This document shows positions 36,951 to 49,599 of a stretch of DNA of 64,000 nt, piece by piece (position 1 is the stretch's first letter; every line of letters starts with the position of its first letter). The notes under the pieces are model-generated. The model had not been told where the DNA came from, did not search any database, and was given only the letters and a program-made list of their open reading frames with translations. Source of the stretch: Aeromicrobium sp. Root472D3 (GTDB lineage Bacteria; Actinomycetota; Actinomycetes; Propionibacteriales; Nocardioidaceae); assembly GCF_001426485.1 (NCBI RefSeq), contig NZ_LMET01000001.1:1850505-1914504 (forward strand), read 5' to 3'. The position numbers and the translations under genes were made by a program.

Positions 36951-37466
36951 ATGAACATGTCTTTGCCGACGACCCCCACCCGGGGAGTGCTCTTCATCCA
37001 CTCCTCGGTCTCTGCGCTGTGCCCGCACGTCGAGTGGGCCGTCGCCGGTGTGCTCGGTGGCACGCCCGATCTCGCCTGGGTCGCGCAGCCTGCCGAGCCC
37101 GGGACGTACCGGGCCGAGCTGTCGTGGCAGGCCCCCGCGGGCACCTCCGCCAAGCTCGCCTCCGCCCTGCGTGGCTGGGAGCTCCTGCGCTTCGAGGTCA
37201 CCGAGGAGCCGACGTCGTCCAGCGAGGGCGCGCGCTACTCGTACACGCCGGAGCTCGGCATCTTCCACGCCCTGACCGGCCTGCACGGCGACGTCATGAT
37301 CCCGGAGGACCGCATCAAGGCGTTCCGGGTCAAGGCCGCCCTGGGCGAGGTCGACCTCGAGACGGCTCTCGACGGCCTGCTGGGCGTCGCGTGGGACGCC
37401 GAGCTCGAGCCGTTCCGGCACGCGGGCGACGGTGCCCCGGTGCGGTGGCTGCACCAGGTCATCTGA
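36951..37466 (+). CDS. DUF3145 family protein
   Basis: A 171-residue actinobacteria-specific protein. The family opening TRGVLFIHSSVSALCPHVEW is clear, followed by AVAGVLGG, the aromatic strand WELLRFEVTEEPTS, and the tail GVAWDAELEPFRHAG. No enzymatic motif is known for the family. GGGAGG precedes the first ATG by four bases; a second ATG two codons later is possible. Its stop lies in a hairpin shared with the convergent membrane acyl-carrier gene. Confidence 0.9.
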   Translation: MNMSLPTTPTRGVLFIHSSVSALCPHVEWAVAGVLGGTPDLAWVAQPAEPGTYRAELSWQAPAGTSAKLASALRGWELLRFEVTEEPTSSSEGARYSYTPELGIFHALTGLHGDVMIPEDRIKAFRVKAALGEVDLETALDGLLGVAWDAELEPFRHAGDGAPVRWLHQVI

Positions 37467-37481
37467 CCCCGGGCCGGGTCA
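37464..37481. terminator. hairpin containing both convergent stop codons
   Basis: TGACCC-CGGGCC-GGGTCA is a six-base-pair stem whose left arm starts with the DUF3145 stop (TGA) and whose right arm ends with the stop of the convergent gene (TCA). No T run follows. It probably marks the 3' ends of both mRNAs. Confidence 0.45.
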
Positions 37482-38288
37482 GCCGATCGTGACCGTGATC
37501 GACGGCGTGGACTCCCCGGTGGCCTTGTTGGTCACGCGGAACTGACGCTCGCCCGTGCGCGAGGTGTAGAGCTCGGTGCGGAAGATGCCGCCGTCGCGGA
37601 CCTGGGTCTGGATGGGGAAGTCGTCCCACGCCGCCCCGGAGCCGCCGTCCTTGACCTCGACCTGCAGGTCCTCACCGTCCGAGCTGCCGGGGAACGCCCC
37701 GCTGAGCAGGAAGCGCTCACCGGGGGACACCTGCTCGCTCGACGTGTTGATCGTGGGCTTCGGGTCGGCCGTGGGGCTCGCGGGCGTCGGCGTCGTCTCC
37801 TCGGCCGGCTCGGGCGTCGTCGCGGCCGGCGTCGGCGTGCCCCCGATGGGCGGCAGGTCGACCTTGCTGATGCCGGTGGCGCTCACGAGCGCCGCGCCGC
37901 CGAGGCCCAGCACGCCGCCGATCACCAGGCCGAAGAACACGAATGTCGCGACGTAGCTGGTCTTGCGGGCACGGCTGGCACCCGCGGGCCGGGCCGGGGG
38001 CGGGGGCGGGCTCGCGAGAGCCGTCGTGGTGCGGGTCGGACGATCGGCGGCGGACTGGGCGACGACGGCGTCGATCGCGTCCTGCACCGTGACCATGGAG
38101 TCGATCGCCGCATCCGACAGGCGGACGCCGAACCGGCGGCCCAGCTCCTCACCGACCTCGACGATCGTCAGCGAGTCGGTGCCCAGCTCGGCCAGCGCGG
38201 CGGACGGGACGACGGCGTCGGCGCGGCAGTCGACGACGCGCACGAGGATGTCGGTCAGCTGCTCGTGGATCGAGGAGGGAGAAGGCAC
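37479..38288 (-). CDS. membrane-anchored acyl-carrier-like protein with extracytoplasmic domain
   Basis: A 269-residue protein with an unusual order of parts. Residues 4-78 are an acyl-carrier domain (SSIHEQLTDILVRVV ... ELGTDSLTIVEVGEELG), with S39 in the phosphopantetheine motif. Then come a Pro-rich linker (SPPPPPARP, 93-101), one transmembrane segment (about 113-137), a Pro/Thr/Ala-rich stalk (144-180) and a C-terminal beta domain with RFLLSGAFPGSSDGEDLQVE and ERQFRVTNKATGES. The carrier domain would face the cytosol and the stalk and beta domain the outside. No synthase or thioesterase is adjacent except the alpha/beta hydrolase that starts divergently 91 bases away. Function unknown. 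Confidence 0.8.
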   Translation of the reverse strand: MPSPSSIHEQLTDILVRVVDCRADAVVPSAALAELGTDSLTIVEVGEELGRRFGVRLSDAAIDSMVTVQDAIDAVVAQSAADRPTRTTTALASPPPPPARPAGASRARKTSYVATFVFFGLVIGGVLGLGGAALVSATGISKVDLPPIGGTPTPAATTPEPAEETTPTPASPTADPKPTINTSSEQVSPGERFLLSGAFPGSSDGEDLQVEVKDGGSGAAWDDFPIQTQVRDGGIFRTELYTSRTGERQFRVTNKATGESTPSITVTIG

Positions 38289-38378
38289 GGGGTCAGTCTA
38301 ACGACGCCGTGCCGCGCATCACGGCATCCTCGACCGATCCACGGGACCAGATGGCCCGACCAGCCCTAGACTGGCTCG

Positions 38379-39341
38379 ATGGAGAGCATCGAGGACGTCC
38401 AGTACGTCGTGGTGCACGGCTATCGCAGGGCATTTCGCATCGCGGGGTCCGGGCCGGCACTGCTGCTGCTCCACGGCCTGGCCTGCGACTCCTCGACGTG
38501 GGTCGACGTCATGCCGGCGCTGGCCGAGCACTACACCGTCATCGCCCCCGACCTGCTCGGGCACGGCGAGTCCGACAAGCCCGATGCCGACTACTCGCTC
38601 GGCGGGTACGCCAACGGCATGCGCGACCTGCTGACGGTGCTGGGCATCGACAAGGTCACGGTCGTCGGCCACAGCTTCGGCGGCGGCGTCGCGATGCAGT
38701 TCGCGTACCAGTTCCCCGACCGCACCGAGCGTGTCGTGCTGGTGTCGACGGGCGGCCTCGGCAAGGAGGTCACGCCCCTCATCCGCTTCCTGACCGTCCC
38801 CGGCAGCGGCCTCGCGCTGGCGGCGGCGACGTTCCGTCCGTGGCGTCCGCTCGTCTCGGGCGCGCTGACGTCGATGTCGCGGCTGCCGACCAGCGCCACG
38901 CGCGACCTCGGCGAGGTGGCCCGCATCTACGAGGCGCTGGCCGACCCCGCCCAGCGCACCGCGGTGCAGAGGGTCACGAGCCACGTGCTCAACTGGCGCG
39001 GCCAGTACGTCACGATGACCGACCGCAGCTATCTGGCGCGGCTCATGCCGGTGCTCGTGATCTGGGGACGCGACGACATGGTGATCCCGGCGTCGCACGC
39101 CGACTCGGCCCCCACCCAGGTCTCGGACGTCCACGTGTTCGAGGACTCCGGTCACTTCCCGCACCGCGACCACCCCGACGAGTTCTCGCGCATCGTCGTC
39201 GAGTTCGTCGAGGCCAACGCCCCGGCCTCCTACCACCGTGGACGGTGGAGGGCGCTGCTGCGCCGGGGAGACCAGTACCAGCTCGAGAGCGTCGTGCCCG
39301 AGCCGGTGCCCGTCGCGGCCGCGGAGCCGGCGATCAGCTGA
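38379..39341 (+). CDS. alpha/beta hydrolase
   Basis: A 320-residue alpha/beta-hydrolase. The oxyanion HG region is LLLLHGLACDSSTW, the nucleophile elbow GHSFGGG (S99), the acidic residue is in VLVIWGRDDMVIP and the histidine in DSGHFPHRDHP. The last about 40 residues (RGRWRALLRRGDQYQLESVV) extend past the fold. Substrate unknown. TAGACT ends six bases before the ATG (leaderless). Its 3' end overlaps the convergent PAP2 gene by eight bases. Confidence 0.88.
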   Translation: MESIEDVQYVVVHGYRRAFRIAGSGPALLLLHGLACDSSTWVDVMPALAEHYTVIAPDLLGHGESDKPDADYSLGGYANGMRDLLTVLGIDKVTVVGHSFGGGVAMQFAYQFPDRTERVVLVSTGGLGKEVTPLIRFLTVPGSGLALAAATFRPWRPLVSGALTSMSRLPTSATRDLGEVARIYEALADPAQRTAVQRVTSHVLNWRGQYVTMTDRSYLARLMPVLVIWGRDDMVIPASHADSAPTQVSDVHVFEDSGHFPHRDHPDEFSRIVVEFVEANAPASYHRGRWRALLRRGDQYQLESVVPEPVPVAAAEPAIS

Positions 39342-40404
39342 CGGGGGTCGCCTCGACCTCGGGGGTGCCCTTCTCGGCCGCGAGCCGTCGGCGTTTCTGC
39401 CACCGGGTGTTGCCCGTGGCCCACGCGCCGACCGCCACGGCGATCCAGCCGATCAGCAGGCCGCCGATGTCGTCGGCGATGTAGTGCCAGCCGAGGTACA
39501 GCGTCGCCAGGATCGTGAAGCCGAGGTAGATCCACGCGGTGTACCGGATGGCGCGGGCGATGCCGGCGTAGTGCAGGAACAGGGCCAGCGTGAACACGAC
39601 GGAGACGTGCAGCGACGCGAAGCCGGCGATGCCGAAGATCTTGTCGCCCTGCGGGTCCTCCTTGAAGCCGAACGCACCCCTCAGCAGCGACATCTGCAGC
39701 TGCGTGGCGCCGTTCTCCGGCAGGTCGGCGAAGCGTTGGGGCTCGTAGAAGGCGGGGCCGAGCGTCGGCAGGCTGTAGTAGCTGACGACGCCGAGCACCC
39801 AGTTCAGGCTCACGGCGGTCGCGTACCAGGCTCCCACCGTGACGTCGCGGTGCAGCACCAGCACCGCCGCGACCGTGATCGGCACGACCGGCAGGTACAG
39901 CACGTACAGCACCGCCAGCACCTGCGCGGCGACCGTCGTGCCGAGAACCGAGTGCAGCACCTCGGCCGGGTTGTTGCCGAAGAACAGCACGTGGTCGAGC
40001 TGGAGCAGCGCACGGTCGTGGATCGTGTTGGTCAGCTCGGGCAGGTAGCTCTTGAGGTTGCGGTAGCTGACGTAGCAGACGTAGAACGACACCATGCCGG
40101 TCGCGGCGTACGCGACGCGCTTGAGCGTCCACTCGTTGCGCACGATCGTGCGGACGCCCGACAGCGTGTTCTTGACGCCGTACCGGTGGATGGCCTGCGG
40201 CACGATGCCGACCAGGAACAGCAGGATGCCCAGCAGCGGCAACCGGATGTAGGCCGGCCCGAGGAAGCCCTCGGGATCCTTCAGACCGACGTTCAGGTCG
40301 TGCGAGAAGTAGATCGCGGTCGCGCCCACCGCGACGGACAGGCAGAAGGCGAAGGCGTACGGCCAGCGGAGGAACGCACGAGGCCAACGGAGCATGGACG
40401 CCAT
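39334..40404 (-). CDS. PAP2 superfamily membrane protein (inositol-phosphotransferase-like)
   Basis: A 356-residue polytopic membrane protein with at least six transmembrane segments. The catalytic PAP2 motifs are GFASLHVSVVFTLAL and LYLGWHYIADDIGG, which give the SxxxH/HxxxD arrangement on one membrane face. The GPAFYEPQRF loop and overall size match the Aur1/inositol phosphorylceramide synthase-like PAP2 group found in actinobacteria, where some members act on phosphoinositides. The precise lipid substrate is not known. It lies 39 bases after the aceE stop region, on the same strand, reading away from it. Confidence 0.85.
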   Translation of the reverse strand: MASMLRWPRAFLRWPYAFAFCLSVAVGATAIYFSHDLNVGLKDPEGFLGPAYIRLPLLGILLFLVGIVPQAIHRYGVKNTLSGVRTIVRNEWTLKRVAYAATGMVSFYVCYVSYRNLKSYLPELTNTIHDRALLQLDHVLFFGNNPAEVLHSVLGTTVAAQVLAVLYVLYLPVVPITVAAVLVLHRDVTVGAWYATAVSLNWVLGVVSYYSLPTLGPAFYEPQRFADLPENGATQLQMSLLRGAFGFKEDPQGDKIFGIAGFASLHVSVVFTLALFLHYAGIARAIRYTAWIYLGFTILATLYLGWHYIADDIGGLLIGWIAVAVGAWATGNTRWQKRRRLAAEKGTPEVEATPVS

Positions 40405-40443: not shown

Positions 40444-43236
40444 TCAAGCGTCGCCGCCCACCTGCTCGACATCGGCCACCGCGGTCGGGTCGTCGATGCG
40501 GAACCGGGTGAAGGCCTCACGGGCCGTCTCCGGCGGCACCGAGCCGCGCTGGGCCAGCGTCTGCAGCACCGACACGACGATCGACTCGGCGTCGATCTGG
40601 AACACGCGACGGGCCGCCGCACGCGTGTCGGCGAAGCCGAAGCCGTCGGCTCCGAGCGACTGCCACGGACCGGGGACCCAGCGGGCGATCTGGTCGGGGA
40701 CGGCGCGCATGTAGTCGCTGACGGCGACCGTGACGGCGCTGGAGTCCATGAGCCGCGACGTGATGTACGGCATCTTGCTGTACTCGCCGGGGTTGTTGAG
40801 GTTCCACTTCTCCGCCGCGATGGCGTCGCGGGCGAGCTCGTTCCACGACGTGACCGACCAGACGTCGGCGGCGACGCCGTAGTCGTCGGCCAGGATCTGC
40901 TGGGCCTTGAGCGCCCACGGCACCGCGACGCCGGACGCCATGATGCGCGCCGGCACGCCCTCGCCGGACGCCTTGCGGTAGATGTAGGCACCCTTCAGCA
41001 GGCCCTCGACGTCGACGTCCTCCGGCTCGGCCGGCTGGTTGAACGCCTCGTTGTAGACCGTCAGGTAGAAGATGACGTCCTCGCCGTGCGGGTGCTGGTC
41101 GGTCGTGCCATACATGCGCTCCAGGCCCAGCTTCACGATGTGGCTGATCTCGAAGCTGAATGCCGGGTCGTAGTGCACGACGGCCGGGTTGGTCTGCGCG
41201 ATCAGCGGCGAGTGGCCGTCGGCGTGCTGCAGGCCCTCACCGGTCAGCGTCGTGCGTCCGGCCGTGGCACCGATCAGGAAGCCGCGGGCCAGCTGGTCGG
41301 CCATCGCCCAGATCGAGTCGGCGGTCCGCTGGAAGCCGAACATCGAGTAGAACATGTAGACCGGGATCATCGGCTCGCCGTGCGTCGAGTACGAGCTGCC
41401 CGCCGCGATCGCCGACGCCATGGCGCCGGCCTCGCTGATGCCCTCGTGCAGCAGCTGGCCCTGGGCCGACTCCTTGTACGCGAGCAGCAGCTTGCGGTCG
41501 ACCGACTCGTACGTCTGGCCGGCCGGGTTGTAGATCTTGGCCGACGGGAACATCGAGTCCATGCCGAACGTGCGGTACTCGTCGGGCGCGATCGGGACGA
41601 TGCGACGTCCGATCTCGGGATCCTTCATGAGGTCGCGGAGCAGGCGGACGAACGCCATCGTCGTGGCGATCTGCTGCTTGCCCGAGCCCTTCTTGAGCTC
41701 CTCGTAGACCTTCGGGTCGGGCAGCTTGACGGTCGCCGGGTTGACGATGCGCTTGGGCAGCGATCCGCCCAGCGCCTCGCGCCGGGCCTTCATGTACTGG
41801 ATCTCTTCGCTGTCGGGACCCGGGTGGTAGAACGGCGCGATGTCGCTGCCGTCGATCTGCTCGTCGGAGACCGGGATGTTGAGGCGGTCGCGGAAGCCCT
41901 TCAGGTCGTCCTTGGTGAGCTTCTTCATCTGGTGCGTCGCGTTGCGTCCGGCGAACGACTCCAGCAGCCAGCCCTTGACGGTGTGCGCCAGGATGACGGT
42001 CGGCTGGCCCGTGTGCTTCTGCGCGGCCTCGAAGGCGGCGTAGACCTTGCGGTAGTCGTGACCGCCGCGAGGCAGGCGCTCGATGTCGCCGTCGGTGAGG
42101 TGCTCGACCATCTTCTGCAGGCGCGGGTCGGGCCCGAAGAAGTTCTCGCGGTTGTAGGCGCCGGTCTCGACCGACAGGGTCTGGAACTCGCCGTCGGGGG
42201 TGCGGTTCATCTGGTTGACGAGGGTGCCGTCGGTGTCGCGGGCGAGCAGGTCGTCCCACTCGCGTCCCCACACGACCTTGATGACGTTCCAGCCCGCGCC
42301 ACGGAACGTGGACTCGAGCTCCTGGATGATCTTGCCGTTGCCGCGCACCGGTCCGTCGAGCTGCTGCAGGTTGCAGTTGATGACCCAGGTCAGGTTGTCG
42401 AGCTCCTCGCGAGCGGCGACGCCGATCGCGCCGAGCGACTCGACCTCGCCCATCTCGCCGTCGCCCAGGAACGTCCAGACGTGCTGCTGGCTGGTGTCCT
42501 TGATGCCGCGGTTCTGGAGGTAGCGGTTGAAGCGTGCCTGGTAGATCGAGTTGATGCCGCCGAGGCCCATCGAGACGGTCGGGAACTCCCAGTAGTCCTG
42601 CATGAGGCGCGGGTGCGGGTACGACGACAGGCCGTTGCCCTCGCCGTGCGAGTGCTCCTGGCGGAACCGGTCCATCTGCGTCTCGTTCAGACCGCCCTCG
42701 AGGAACGAGCGGGCGTAGATGCCGGGCGCCGCGTGACCCTGGAAGTAGATGTGGTCACCGCCGCCGGGGTGGTCCTTGCCGCGGAAGAAGTGGTTGAAGC
42801 CGACCTCGTACAGGCTGGCCGCGGACTGGTACGACGCGATGTGACCGCCGACGCCGAGGCCGGGACGGTTGGCGCGCGACACCATGACGGCGGCGTTCCA
42901 GCGGATGTAGGAGCGGATGCGGCGCTCGATGGCCTCGTTGCCGGGGAACCACGGCTCGCGCTCGGGCGGGATCGTGTTGATGAAGTCGGTGCTGCGCAGT
43001 GCCGGCACGCCGACGTTCTGCTCGCGAGCCCGCTCGAGGAGCTTCAGCATCACGTAACGAGCACGGCTGCGTCCGCGGCTGTCGACCATGTCGTCGAGCG
43101 AGGCCAGCCACTCGGCCGTCTCGTCGGGGTCGATGTCAGGCAGTTGGGTCGGAAGACCCTCGTGGATGACGGGCGGACGTTCCTGGCCGGATTGCGGCAT
43201 GTTCACTCCCAGTTGTCTTGTGGACGTGTCCATCAT
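40444..43236 (-). CDS. aceE: pyruvate dehydrogenase E1 component, homodimeric type
   Basis: A 930-residue thiamine-diphosphate enzyme that decarboxylates pyruvate and acetylates the lipoyl group of E2, feeding acetyl-CoA to the TCA cycle. Markers are [20 protein letters not shown], the ThDP motif [12 protein letters not shown]...[13 protein letters not shown], and the pyrimidine-domain stretch [15 protein letters not shown]. The E2 and E3 genes are not adjacent. GGAGG lies five bases before the first of two ATGs. It diverges from DUF3052 across a palindromic promoter region. Confidence 0.97.
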
Positions 43237-45333: not shown

Positions 45334-46629
45334 ATGAAGACACCCGTCGTCAGAGCCGCCTCGGCGCTCCTCGCCACCGTCGCGCTCGTGGCCGCCGGGA
45401 TGATGGCGCCGGCCTCCGCGGCCGGCAGCACCGCGAGGCTCACCGGTGTCGTGTCGCTCGACGGCAGGCCGGTCCCGTTCGCGAAGGTGCAGCTGTTCCG
45501 ACTCGTCTACGACGAGACGACCGAGGAGCGCGAGGTCTCGTCGCGCCTCAAGACCGACAACACGGACCGGAAGGGCCGGTACGACTTCTCCGGTCTGTCG
45601 GCGACGTCCTCGAGCGGCACGTACGCGGTGCTGGTGACCGACCGCTCGAGCGCGGGCGTCAAGACCTACCGGACGGTGGTCGTGAAGAAGGGCAGGACCC
45701 TCACGAAGAACGTGCGCCTCGCGGCGGCGGCCACGGTGACGGGTTCGGTCGACACGTCGGACGGCCGCTCACCCGCCGGGTTGACGATCAACCTCGACTC
45801 GAACCGGGACGATCTCCTCCCGGGGTCCTGGGACAAGCTGAAGCCGGTCTTCGACACGGTCGTGCGGGCCGACGGGACCTTCCGTCTCGCCGGGGTTCCC
45901 GCCACCGGGTACGACGCGGTGCAGCTCATGGACGGCCGGCACGCCGTGCAGTGCTACGACCTCGTCAGCAGCTCCTTGGGCTCCTGCGAGTCGATCCCGT
46001 TCCAGCAGAAGAAGATCACGTTGAGGCCCGGCGAGACCCGCGTCCTGCCGACGGTCACCAAGACGACATTCGCCCCACCCGTGACCACGGTGTCGGGCAG
46101 GGTCACCGACACGTCCGGCAGGCCGCTGAAGGGCATCGAGGTCAGCGTGCTGGGCGACTCCGTGCGGGAGACGGTCCTGACGCGGTCGAGCGGTCGCTAC
46201 TCGCTGCGGAGGAGCATCCCTGCCGGCCAGTACACCGTTCGATACGACGATCCCCGGCGCGTGTGGGCGTCGCAGTACCTCGGCGGTGACACGGACCTGA
46301 CCGTGCGTCGCCAGGTCGTCGTGACGCCGGGGCAGCCCGTCGCCGGGCTCGACACGCGGCTGAAGTCGGCGACCAGGAACAGGGTCTCGTTCAGGTCGGG
46401 CAAGGGATTCATCGAGGTGACGTTCTCCCTGGTGAGACGCGTGTCGGGTGGACGGCCGAGCGGCTCGATGACGATCACGTCGGCGGGCTCGTCGGCGACG
46501 GCTCGGGTGAAGAACGGCAAGGTCACCGTCAGGCTGACCGGACTTCCCGGATCGCGGCACGCGGTGACGGCGGTCTACTCCGGGACGCCGAACACCGCGG
46601 GATTCACGCGCGGCTTCTCGCCGAAGTGA
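45334..46629 (+). CDS. secreted protein with CnaB-like and Ig-like domains (paralogue 1)
   Basis: A 431-residue exported protein with a classic signal peptide (cleavage near ASAAG, about residue 30). The mature part begins with a carboxypeptidase-regulatory/CnaB-like domain (LTGVVSLDGRPVPFAKVQLF), a second similar domain (about 130-230), then a third (TTVSGRVTDTSGRPLKGIEV) ending in RVWASQYLGGDTD, and an Ig-like end with VKNGKVTVRLTGLPGS and YSGTPNTAGF. No sortase motif or anchor is seen. It shares all these parts with the next gene and the last two with the SGNH hydrolase downstream. GAGGGGG precedes the ATG. Confidence 0.85.
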   Translation: MKTPVVRAASALLATVALVAAGMMAPASAAGSTARLTGVVSLDGRPVPFAKVQLFRLVYDETTEEREVSSRLKTDNTDRKGRYDFSGLSATSSSGTYAVLVTDRSSAGVKTYRTVVVKKGRTLTKNVRLAAAATVTGSVDTSDGRSPAGLTINLDSNRDDLLPGSWDKLKPVFDTVVRADGTFRLAGVPATGYDAVQLMDGRHAVQCYDLVSSSLGSCESIPFQQKKITLRPGETRVLPTVTKTTFAPPVTTVSGRVTDTSGRPLKGIEVSVLGDSVRETVLTRSSGRYSLRRSIPAGQYTVRYDDPRRVWASQYLGGDTDLTVRRQVVVTPGQPVAGLDTRLKSATRNRVSFRSGKGFIEVTFSLVRRVSGGRPSGSMTITSAGSSATARVKNGKVTVRLTGLPGSRHAVTAVYSGTPNTAGFTRGFSPK

Positions 46630-46755
46630 CGGAACGTGTTCCGCCCGGTCTTCCGCGCGGGGTGTCGTTCGGCCATGGTGAGTCTCGCTCCTGACCCAAC
46701 GAGCAGCTGCAGGACCCGGCGCGCACCCGCGTGCCGGCAACGAGAGGGGAGTGTC

Positions 46756-48072
46756 ATGACGTCATCGGTGAAGAGGAGCGGTGCCGCTGCGGCGGCTGCG
46801 GCTGTGGCGGCGATCGCGCTGCTGACCGGGGGGCTCGCGTCGCCCGCGGCCGCCGCGACGAGCAAGGCGACCGTCAAGGGCGTCGTGACGCTCGACGGCA
46901 AGCCCGTGTCGTTCGCGCGGGTCCAGCTCTATCGCGACATGGGTGGCGACGCGGACGACCCGGAGTACGCGCGCGTCAAGACCGCCAACACCGACAGCAA
47001 GGGCCGGTACACGATCTCGGGCGTCTCGCTCGTCAAGCTCTCGGAGGAGTCCGCCGGGTACGCCATCGTGGTCAGCGACCGCTCCGGCAACATCGTCAGG
47101 ACCCACCGCTTCGTCCGCCCGGAGGCAGGCAAGGTCGTGACGCGCAACGTCTGGGCGCAGCGCGCCGGGATCATCACGGGCAAGGTCTCCCGATCCGACG
47201 GCGGCGACCCGCGCGCCCTCGAGGTGACGATCGCCACCGAGGAGCAGGAGGCGACGCGCGACAACTACTTCGTGCCGGAGTTCGCCACCGCAGAGGACGC
47301 CACGGTGAAGGCCGACGGCACGTTCACGCTGGGCGGCGTCGCACCCCGCACGTACAACGCGCTGATCGTCAGGGGAGCGCCGTACGCGTCCCAGTGCTAC
47401 TCCCCCTCGACCAACGCGCTCGCCGACTGCGACGACTCGGTCGCCCAGCGCATCTCGGTCGGAGCCGGTGAGCGTCGCCAGATCGCGCCCCTCACCGCCA
47501 ACAAGATGCTGCCGCCGGCGACGACCGTGACGGGGCAGGTCACCGACACCTCGGGCAAGGCGCTCAAGGGCATCAACGTCAGCATCTCCGGCTCGGGCGC
47601 CAGCGAGGTCGGCGTGACGCGGTCGAGCGGTCGCTTCACCGTCCGTGAGGTCCTTCCGTCCGGCTCGTACCAGGTGCGGTACGACGATCCCGACGGCGTG
47701 TGGGCGTCGCAGTACCTCGGCGGTGGCCCCGACAAGTCCGTGCGCCAGCCGATCGCGATCGTCTCGGGTGACCCCGTCCGCTCCGTCGACACGAGGCTGA
47801 AGTCCATCTCGAATGCCAAGATCGCCACGAAGACCGGTCAGGGGACGGCCAAGGTCGCGTTCCGGATCACGCGCAAGGCCTCGGGCAGCTCTCCGAGCGG
47901 CACGCTGAAGCTGTCGTACGGAGACGTCTCGAAGACCGTCACCGTCACCAAGGGCAGGGCGACCGTGACGCTGACAGGCCTTCGCAAGGGGGTGCGCAAG
48001 CTCGTCGCCGACTACTCGGGCACCGGCAGCACCGCCGGCTTCTCGAAGACCGTCAGGGTCACGGTGAAGTAG
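46756..48072 (+). CDS. secreted protein with CnaB-like and Ig-like domains (paralogue 2)
   Basis: A 438-residue exported protein, a full-length paralogue of the preceding gene. The signal peptide is AAAAAAVAAIALLTGGLASP with cleavage near PAAAAT. It has CnaB-like domains beginning VKGVVTLDGKPVSFARVQLY and TTVTGQVTDTSGKALKGINV, then GVWASQYLGGGPD and the Ig-like end (VTKGRATVTLTGLRKG; YSGTGSTAGFS). The ATG has GAGAGGGGA upstream. A cysteine pair (in SQCYSPSTNALADCDD) matches one in paralogue 1 and may form a disulfide. Binding or adhesive role is inference. Confidence 0.85.
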   Translation: MTSSVKRSGAAAAAAAVAAIALLTGGLASPAAAATSKATVKGVVTLDGKPVSFARVQLYRDMGGDADDPEYARVKTANTDSKGRYTISGVSLVKLSEESAGYAIVVSDRSGNIVRTHRFVRPEAGKVVTRNVWAQRAGIITGKVSRSDGGDPRALEVTIATEEQEATRDNYFVPEFATAEDATVKADGTFTLGGVAPRTYNALIVRGAPYASQCYSPSTNALADCDDSVAQRISVGAGERRQIAPLTANKMLPPATTVTGQVTDTSGKALKGINVSISGSGASEVGVTRSSGRFTVREVLPSGSYQVRYDDPDGVWASQYLGGGPDKSVRQPIAIVSGDPVRSVDTRLKSISNAKIATKTGQGTAKVAFRITRKASGSSPSGTLKLSYGDVSKTVTVTKGRATVTLTGLRKGVRKLVADYSGTGSTAGFSKTVRVTVK

Positions 48073-48078
48073 CGCCGC

Positions 48079-48100
48079 CCGGAAAGCCTGCGGTTTCCGG
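48079..48100 (+). terminator. weak hairpin after paralogue 2
   Basis: CCGGAAA and TTTCCGG form a seven-base-pair stem with an eight-base loop, just after the stop. No T run follows, so it is a weak terminator at best. A TACCGT eleven bases later could be the -10 for the SGNH hydrolase gene. Confidence 0.4.
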
Positions 48101-48177
48101 ATCGCACGGCTACCGTGTCTCGATGTGACGTGGGTCACTCAGGGGGAGTCCCCTTCACATCGAGTCGAGGATTGCGC

Positions 48178-49599
48178 ATGCGTCGAACAGTTACTGCCGG
48201 GATCGTCGTGTGTCTGACGGCCGTCGGCGGACCATCCGGGATGGCGTCCGCCGACGAGCCGGCCCAGGCGCCGCTGCGTTACGTGGCGCTGGGCGACTCC
48301 TACAGCGCGGGCGCGGGGCTGCTGCCGCTCGACCCCACGGCGTCTCCGAGCTGCCTGCAGTCGACGGTCAACTATCCGCACGTCCTCGCCACGAGGATCA
48401 ACGCGAGCCTGACGGACGCGACGTGCAGCGGTGCCGACACCACGGACTACTTCGAGCCGCAGTTCTCCGACGTCCCGCCTCAGCTCGACAAGCTCACCGC
48501 CGACACCGACCTCGTGACGATGACGATCGGTGGCAACGACAGCAGCGTGTTCAGCGGCGCGATCCAGGCGTGCATCACCGCGGCGCCCGCCGATCTGGCC
48601 GGGAGCCCGTGCAAGAACCAGTACGGCGACTCGTTCGAGGACACGGTCCGAGGCACGACGTATCCCGCCCTGGTCAAGGCGCTGACCGCCGTGCAGCAGC
48701 GGTCGCCGTACGCGCAGGTGCTCATCCTCGGCTACCCGTCGATCCTGCCGGCGACGACGGGCTGCTACCCGTTCGTGCCGGTCGCGACGGGCGACGTCCC
48801 CTACCTGCGCAGCCTCCAGGGCACCCTCAACGACGCCGTCCGGAGGGCGGCGTCCGCGACCGGTGCGACGTACGTCGACCTGAACGGCCCGTCGGAGGGG
48901 CGCGACGCCTGCCAGCCGATCGGGACGCGCTGGGTCGAGCCGGTCATCGGCGGCACGAACCCCGTGATCCTGCACCCCAACGCGCAGGGCGAGCAGGCGT
49001 TGGCCGATCTGGCCTTCGCGGCGTTCTCGTCCCTGCCGTCGTCGTCGACCCTCACGGGCCGGGTCACGGGCTACTCGGGCAGGGCGGTCAAGGGCGCCGA
49101 CGTCCGCGTGACCGCCGTGGGTGGAACGTCCACCCGTTCGGTCACGACGCGCGCCAACGGCCGATTCACGCTGCCGGGCCTGCCGAAGGGGTCGTACGTG
49201 GTGCGGGTCGTCGACCCGAAGAAGGCCTGGGCCTCACGCTACCTCGGAGGTGGGTCGAGCCGGTCGACCGCACGGGTGGTGACGGTCAAGCGCGGCAAGG
49301 ACGTCTCCGGGCTCGACGTGAGGCTCAAGGCGGCCGTGCGCGCGAGCGTCGCGCGCAGGGGCGGTGACGGCTCCGTCAAGGTGTCCGTCTCGATCAGGCG
49401 GGCCGTGACCAAGACGCGTCCCGGCGGCAAGGTCACCGTCTCGTACGGCTCGCGGGTCAAGGCCGTCAAGGTCAGGAAGGGGCGCGCGACGCTCACGCTG
49501 TCGCGCATCCCGGCGGGTACCCGCACCGTGAAGGTGACGTACTCGGGGACGGACAGCACGGCGGGGTTCACGCGCACGTACCGCGTCCGCGTGCGGTGA
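48178..49599 (+). CDS. secreted SGNH/GDSL hydrolase with CnaB-Ig C-terminal module
   Basis: A 473-residue exported lipase/esterase. After a signal peptide (cleavage near ASADE) the SGNH domain (about 32-280) has block I VALGDSYSAGAG (S41), block III TMTIGGNDSS and block V PVILHPNAQGEQ. The last about 185 residues (STLTGRVTGYSGRAVKGADV, AWASRYLGGGSS, VRKGRATLTLSRIPAG, YSGTDSTAGFTRTY) are the same two-domain module seen in the two preceding secreted proteins. The ATG used here begins the signal peptide; an earlier in-frame ATG gives a poor N terminus. The substrate may be a lipid or acylated glycan. Confidence 0.88.
   Translation: MRRTVTAGIVVCLTAVGGPSGMASADEPAQAPLRYVALGDSYSAGAGLLPLDPTASPSCLQSTVNYPHVLATRINASLTDATCSGADTTDYFEPQFSDVPPQLDKLTADTDLVTMTIGGNDSSVFSGAIQACITAAPADLAGSPCKNQYGDSFEDTVRGTTYPALVKALTAVQQRSPYAQVLILGYPSILPATTGCYPFVPVATGDVPYLRSLQGTLNDAVRRAASATGATYVDLNGPSEGRDACQPIGTRWVEPVIGGTNPVILHPNAQGEQALADLAFAAFSSLPSSSTLTGRVTGYSGRAVKGADVRVTAVGGTSTRSVTTRANGRFTLPGLPKGSYVVRVVDPKKAWASRYLGGGSSRSTARVVTVKRGKDVSGLDVRLKAAVRASVARRGGDGSVKVSVSIRRAVTKTRPGGKVTVSYGSRVKAVKVRKGRATLTLSRIPAGTRTVKVTYSGTDSTAGFTRTYRVRVR

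Follow-up and report, generated by a model that had tools for sequence, protein, structure and literature searches.

An acyl carrier protein domain fused to a membrane-anchored Ig-like domain in Aeromicrobium, in the locus position of a type II fatty acid synthase carrier gene

Our study concerns a gene within a stretch of 64,000 nucleotides (hereafter, the window) of the genome of Aeromicrobium sp. Root472D3 (contig NZ_LMET01000001.1, positions 1,850,505 to 1,914,504 of the forward strand). The gene lies at 37479..38288 on the minus strand and is an open reading frame (ORF) of 269 amino acids (aa) with a GTG start, which encodes a domain of the acyl carrier protein (ACP) family with the predicted fold and conserved attachment serine of such carriers, followed by a hydrophobic helix and an outer Ig-like domain (the last two together are called TM-Ig here, for transmembrane and Ig-like); the gene also occupies the slot of acpP, the carrier gene of the type II fatty acid synthase (FAS-II). 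A first-pass annotation of the window had noticed a carrier-type domain, a transmembrane segment and an external beta domain in one ORF, and our analysis confirms this observation: the ORF is real, it has relatives, and it represents a conserved, new architecture built on a known kind of carrier. The explanation that we find somewhat probable is that its ACP part descends from AcpP, was kept after fabD, fabH, fabF and accD vanished from the locus and the type I synthase took their place, and was fused in frame to the neighbouring TM-Ig gene, which encodes a single-pass membrane protein.

All parts of the gene are read from the minus strand. The acyl carrier domain comprises residues 1-81 (38046..38288), with Ser39 as the attachment residue; in the Pfam scan, residues 9-74 matched PF00550 with 36.3 bits (cut-off 20.8), and structure prediction, which the first-pass annotation had named as a check of the carrier fold, returned a four-helix ACP fold with the Ser opening helix II. 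There follow a Pro/Arg-rich cytosolic linker (residues 82-109, 37962..38045), whose low pLDDT agrees with flexibility; a single, glycine-rich transmembrane helix (residues 110-136, 37881..37961) of moderate pLDDT, oriented N-in by charge; a Pro/Thr-rich stalk (residues 137-178, 37755..37880) with an LPP-type motif just past the membrane; and an extracytoplasmic Ig-like beta-sandwich (residues 179-269, 37482..37754), assigned from the predicted structure and from structure comparisons. No catalytic domain was found in the fusion protein, and a Pfam scan of four TM-Ig proteins gave no match above cut-off for the TM-Ig half, the MmpS family included.

The protein search identified 223 relatives at E <= 1e-3, the best 120 of which were used for residue counts; an organism name is given for 15 of these 120, and all 15 are Aeromicrobium. 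A contig search for related loci returned one locus (L013). The attachment Ser is kept in 119 of the 120 listed relatives, and the exception (P0084) is without that region. A GxxxG motif within or close to the transmembrane helix is present in all 120, and the LPP-type motif after the membrane in 94. In a profile of 21 relatives, many columns of the ACP part are invariant, D38 and S39 among them, as are the glycines in or near the transmembrane helix and W221, D222, F224 and P225 of the outer domain.

The same architecture was then found in other genomes, as the first-pass annotation had proposed to check: the 49 genomes of the window's genus-level group (g1) comprise 31 with the full fusion, 3 with two ORFs, 14 with TM-Ig only (counting G396, which starts at a contig edge and where the presence of the ACP is undecidable) and one with no match (G406, 58% complete). 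In the two-ORF genomes G349, G064 and G402, the ORFs of ACP and TM-Ig lie in separate frames and share a GTGA, in which stop and start overlap; the clean overlaps in three genomes disfavour a sequencing error as the cause of the split, and this arrangement suggests that the two parts act together. A tree of NnrD from 46 genomes unites all 13 TM-Ig-only genomes that it contains in a single clade (support 100/98) and places the split forms at two points within the fused clade, so that these are most simply fissions. The ancestral state is read as two genes because the sister genus (g4) has separate adjacent genes. The profile also finds ACP-less TM-Ig proteins in genomes of groups g2, g3 and g5. 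Five such loci were compared: in L139 and L143 (g5) the gene stands directly beside a dnaK-like gene, in L140 (g2) it is one gene away, and in L142 it lies between an MFS-type (major facilitator superfamily) gene and a hypothetical gene, both named by eye.

There are comparative signs that Ser39 is used. The window genome has two genes for holo-ACP synthase (AcpS), one behind the type I fatty acid synthase (FAS-I) gene and one directly upstream of nnrD-alr. When the 49 genomes were searched for the nnrD-linked type, 31 matches had E-values of 4.6e-40 or better and the rest of 7e-15 or worse. This gene is present in 30/34 ACP-bearing genomes against 0/14 TM-Ig-only genomes, and among genomes of at least 90% completeness in 26/28 against 0/11; where the region upstream of nnrD was read, in 13 of the TM-Ig-only genomes, nothing resembled AcpS beyond the level of chance. 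The four ACP-bearing genomes without it are G003, G273, G399 (84% complete) and G400 (71% complete). The possibility that this AcpS serves proteins of the nonribosomal peptide synthetase (NRPS) type instead is disfavoured by two sets of genomes: in eight, the ACP is the sole PF00550 match, and seven of them keep the nnrD-linked AcpS, the eighth being the incomplete G400; and G058, G103 and G390 contain other PF00550 domains but neither the fused-type ACP nor this AcpS.

The sister genus repeats the pattern. G088 has an ACP with the Ser and the nnrD-linked AcpS. In the other four genomes the FAS-I-linked AcpS is the only one, apart from two further PF01648 matches in G300 that fit neither AcpS query: in G085 the Ser is replaced by Ala and in G300 by Glu, G277 has a degenerate motif, and in G380 no ACP gene was seen. 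In L160, the locus of G300, the orphan ACP lies just upstream of the TM-Ig gene and the altered motif reads GLDEV, such that the attachment residue has been replaced differently (Glu, Ala) within one genus. In addition, G061, of group g3, has an AcpS of the second, nnrD-linked type alongside a stand-alone ACP with the Ser. The first-pass annotation had pointed to S39 as a phosphopantetheine site, and this co-distribution is a comparative sign in its favour: Ser39 is probably functional, and the joint absence of carrier and nnrD-linked AcpS suggests that, where present, the carrier still works.

The origin of the ACP part in an acpP locus is well supported by position. The idea was taken from the gene order aceE, FAS-II, DUF3145 of Streptomyces. 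In the window, the DUF3145 gene (36951..37466, plus strand; PF11343, 233.5 bits), which in relatives marks the FAS-II locus, is convergent with the fusion gene. Such a gene is found in 190/196 genomes of the order. In nearly all stretches compared it adjoins a FAS-II locus or its remnant. In the Nocardioides-like loci L053 and L055, it converges with a block made up of a carboxyltransferase gene (accD), fabF, acpP, fabH and fabD (every gene type was covered by a Pfam scan of one or both loci), and the DUF3145-adjacent position and orientation are common to their fabF-acpP block and the fusion gene. Between the hydrolase and DUF3145 genes, the sister genus (L056, L057) carries genes for a PucR-type regulator, a small orphan ACP and a TM-Ig protein; G061 has there its stand-alone ACP of 146 aa; and in g1 the slot holds the fused ACP-TM-Ig, followed by the hydrolase and then by PAP2 and aceE where the stretch reaches. 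Orphan ACPs thus occupy the DUF3145-side slot in three genus-level groups (g1, g4 and G061). In the window genome, no FabD, FabH or FabF gene was found between aceE and DUF3145. Genes of the compared stretches that are called DnaK, GlmS or aldo-keto reductase were named by eye, not by scanning.

The remaining neighbours are an alpha/beta hydrolase gene (38379..39341, plus strand), divergent from the fusion gene across a gap of 90 bases (38289..38378), a PAP2_3 family membrane protein gene (39334..40404, minus strand) and the locus anchor aceE, which encodes a homodimeric pyruvate dehydrogenase E1 (40444..43236, minus strand; TIGR00759, 1310.9 bits). Hydrolase and PAP2 genes, assigned by Pfam and syntenic by locus comparison, are retained in 10/10 ACP-less genomes whose locus was examined (10 of the 14), and DUF3145 is visible in nine of these ten stretches, the exception being G390 (L115). 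A functional tie of the carrier to these two neighbours, at which the first-pass annotation had hinted, is therefore rejected; what stands of its interpretation is the membrane-tethered carrier fold, together with the signs of Ser use described above.

With respect to fatty acid synthesis itself, the window genome contains a single FAS-I ORF, about 3000 aa long, which includes a ketosynthase (KS) domain and is followed by the AcpS gene. A full-length FabF-type KS was not found in this genome, the genome-wide search not extending to FabH and FabD; the other PF00109 matches of the genome are partial, with 20-30 bits over 32-50 positions, and we took them for thiolases. PF02801 matches occur in 43/49 genomes of the genus, the six without them all being less than 90% complete. 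Extra KS matches lie in long ORFs of the polyketide synthase (PKS) type in G003, G100, G390 and G401, and in ORFs of 418-565 aa, to which no class was assigned, in G181, G100 and G273. FAS-I was also seen in G061 and in 4/5 genomes of the sister genus, where the stretch of G088 ends too early.

Based on these results, we propose a mechanism in which the four-helix ACP domain would lie in the cytosol, as its sequence family and predicted fold indicate, and Ser39 would be converted to the holo form by the nnrD-linked AcpS and not by the FAS-I-linked one, as the co-distribution suggests. Together with the origin in the acpP locus, these two steps are likely. The acyl chain would come from the acyl-CoA (coenzyme A) pool of FAS-I, or from free fatty acid through a putative loader, because no FabF-type synthase was found in the window genome. 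The TM/Ig half may then keep the holo-ACP on the cytosolic side of the membrane, next to a putative partner, where the acyl thioester would be presented for, or would regulate, an envelope process; that the protein works in this last step as a carrier or scaffold falls, in our estimate, just short of an even chance. A bolder version, which we put forward as distinctly unlikely, is a dedicated membrane-bound carrier with its own holo-synthase that has outlived its pathway and acts as a single-chain acyl delivery or sensing subunit of an envelope machine, with a layout like that of AcpM plus MmpS.

It is important to consider the points that weigh against descent from AcpP with a retained carrier role. 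The fused protein is below the cut-off of all NCBIfam ACP models (best NF002148, 34.5 bits against 71). In the ACP-only tree, which has very long branches, the fused ACPs form their own group, and we rejected this tree as proof of descent since it is too short. Helix II reads EELGRRF in 105/119 and DELGRRF in 10/119 listed relatives, against an AAEEKF type in FAS-II ACPs of the same family; the acidic face of this helix is partly altered, therefore the partner face would be unlike that of AcpP. The ACP is dispensable, having been lost in 14/49 genomes of the genus, while the Ser is lost or the ACP gone in 4/5 of the sister genus. The TM-Ig-only genomes form one clade, thus the co-loss within the genus is one event without independent statistical weight; an independent-pairs test on the NnrD tree yielded one pair, and treating genomes as independent evidence was rejected after that tree. 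In G003 and G273, which are sisters within g1 (L124, L125), the nnrD-linked AcpS is largely deleted, with only the gene ends left between flanks 92-96% identical to those of G100, whose AcpS is intact, and the ACP fusion is nevertheless retained (the Ser was read in the sequence of G003, and the ACP of G273 was judged by its PF00550 score alone). A divergent AcpS in this slot is rejected, as only the ends of the deleted copy were found; the loss looks recent, and our guess is that another phosphopantetheinyl transferase (PPTase) serves the ACP in these genomes, which have many PF00550 matches of the NRPS/PKS type. In balance, two lineages lost the ACP or its Ser together with the AcpS, which speaks for a working carrier, and one lost the AcpS only, which speaks against it. 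Finally, the analysis did not reveal a loader, a cargo or an acceptor, with MMPL, FabH, FabD, PlsX and LipB not searched genome-wide.

Some of these points would fit a decaying relic, in which the TM-Ig half is functional and the ACP is a passenger, left over from a dead FAS-II locus, without an acyl role and on its way to loss. The 14 genomes with TM-Ig alone (G396 remaining undecidable at its contig edge), the losses in the sister genus and the ACP-less TM-Ig relatives elsewhere in Nocardioides-like genomes all agree with it. Nevertheless, an attachment motif this well held, with the Ser in 119/119 listed relatives that have the domain and many invariant ACP columns, is unexpected for a pure passenger, and in sufficiently complete genomes Ser and nnrD-linked AcpS persist or vanish together, apart from G003 and G273; we consider the relic rather unlikely. 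If the protein were instead a one-chain analogue of mycobacterial AcpM and MmpS, the ACP would sit on the cytosolic face of an MmpL/RND-type (resistance-nodulation-division) transporter and the TM/beta half on its membrane and outer face. We hold this to be quite improbable. No MmpS appears among the 50 matches listed in either structure search with the beta domain, no Pfam family fits the TM-Ig half, and the AcpM contacts E52 and D53 correspond here to G50 and R51 when mapped by the D-S motif.

The glycine-rich helix, with its GxxxG in every listed relative, and the invariant residues in all three parts might also be expected of a transmembrane sensor of acyl state, in which acylation of the ACP would alter dimerisation through this helix and the external Ig domain would read out the change, or the signal would run in the opposite direction; yet no signalling output domain was found, and the linkers are of low confidence and variable, with nothing that mechanically links both ends, which makes a sensor very improbable. 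A housekeeping carrier that supplies a FAS-I organism with lipoate or some other cofactor, its membrane tether being incidental, would fit the nearby aceE, whose pyruvate dehydrogenase complex needs lipoate, and the orphan ACPs in the slot of g1, g4 and G061. Apart from the absence of the ACP in 14/49 genomes of the genus, lipoate supply is an unlikely role because LipB of E. coli is reported to accept C8-CoA and to favour this substrate over C8-ACP (PMC9307952), such that an ACP need not be required; of all the readings, we hold this one to be extremely improbable.

Two further observations were made nearby. Some 9 kb ahead of the window, L010:4080-8057 encodes an NRPS-like protein of 1325 aa with AMP-binding, PP-binding and hexapeptide repeat regions, and PF00550 matches in ORFs of similar length recur across many genomes of the genus. 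Within the window, 45334-49599 encodes a run of three proteins that look secreted and have carboxypeptidase-regulatory-like and Ig-like domains; the last of them also has an N-terminal GDSL/SGNH hydrolase domain.

If descent from AcpP holds, this would be an ACP caught changing its job: its locus has lost the FAS-II genes, the genome has FAS-I, and in one of three groups the orphan ACP is bolted to the membrane. The sister genus and the TM-Ig-only clade constitute a natural experiment in which genomes without the nnrD-linked AcpS also lack the attachment Ser, and which makes a role of orphan ACPs after FAS-II directly testable; the AcpS loss in G003 and G273 offers a case in which to test whether another PPTase steps in. 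Should the tethered carrier handle acyl chains at the membrane, it would add a carrier layout for which we found no membrane-tethered or fused ACP counterpart in the titles and abstract openings of the open-access literature.

Compared with known systems, the fusion shares with FAS-II AcpP of Nocardioidaceae-type relatives the fold, the Ser motif and the slot beside DUF3145, and differs in its TM-Ig part, the lack of FAS-II partners at the locus, the changed charge of helix II and the sub-cut-off NCBIfam scores. The NRPS/PKS or NRPS-like carriers, such as L010:4080-8057 of the window genome, share PF00550 but there accompany an AMP-binding domain, whereas the fusion has no catalytic domain. 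The free-standing TM-Ig proteins of Nocardioides-like genomes resemble it in the single transmembrane helix, the Pro/Thr stalk and the Ig-like C-terminal part, and are unlike it in having no ACP and a different locus. The closest functional picture, by analogy, is the mycobacterial AcpM-MmpL5-MmpS5 assembly, which combines an ACP on the cytosolic side with a protein of one transmembrane helix and an outer beta domain (PMC12346298). The likeness is one of layout and implies no kinship of the beta domains, and two AcpM contact positions are not conserved in our mapping; what that assembly distributes over separate proteins, the fusion would bring together in one chain.
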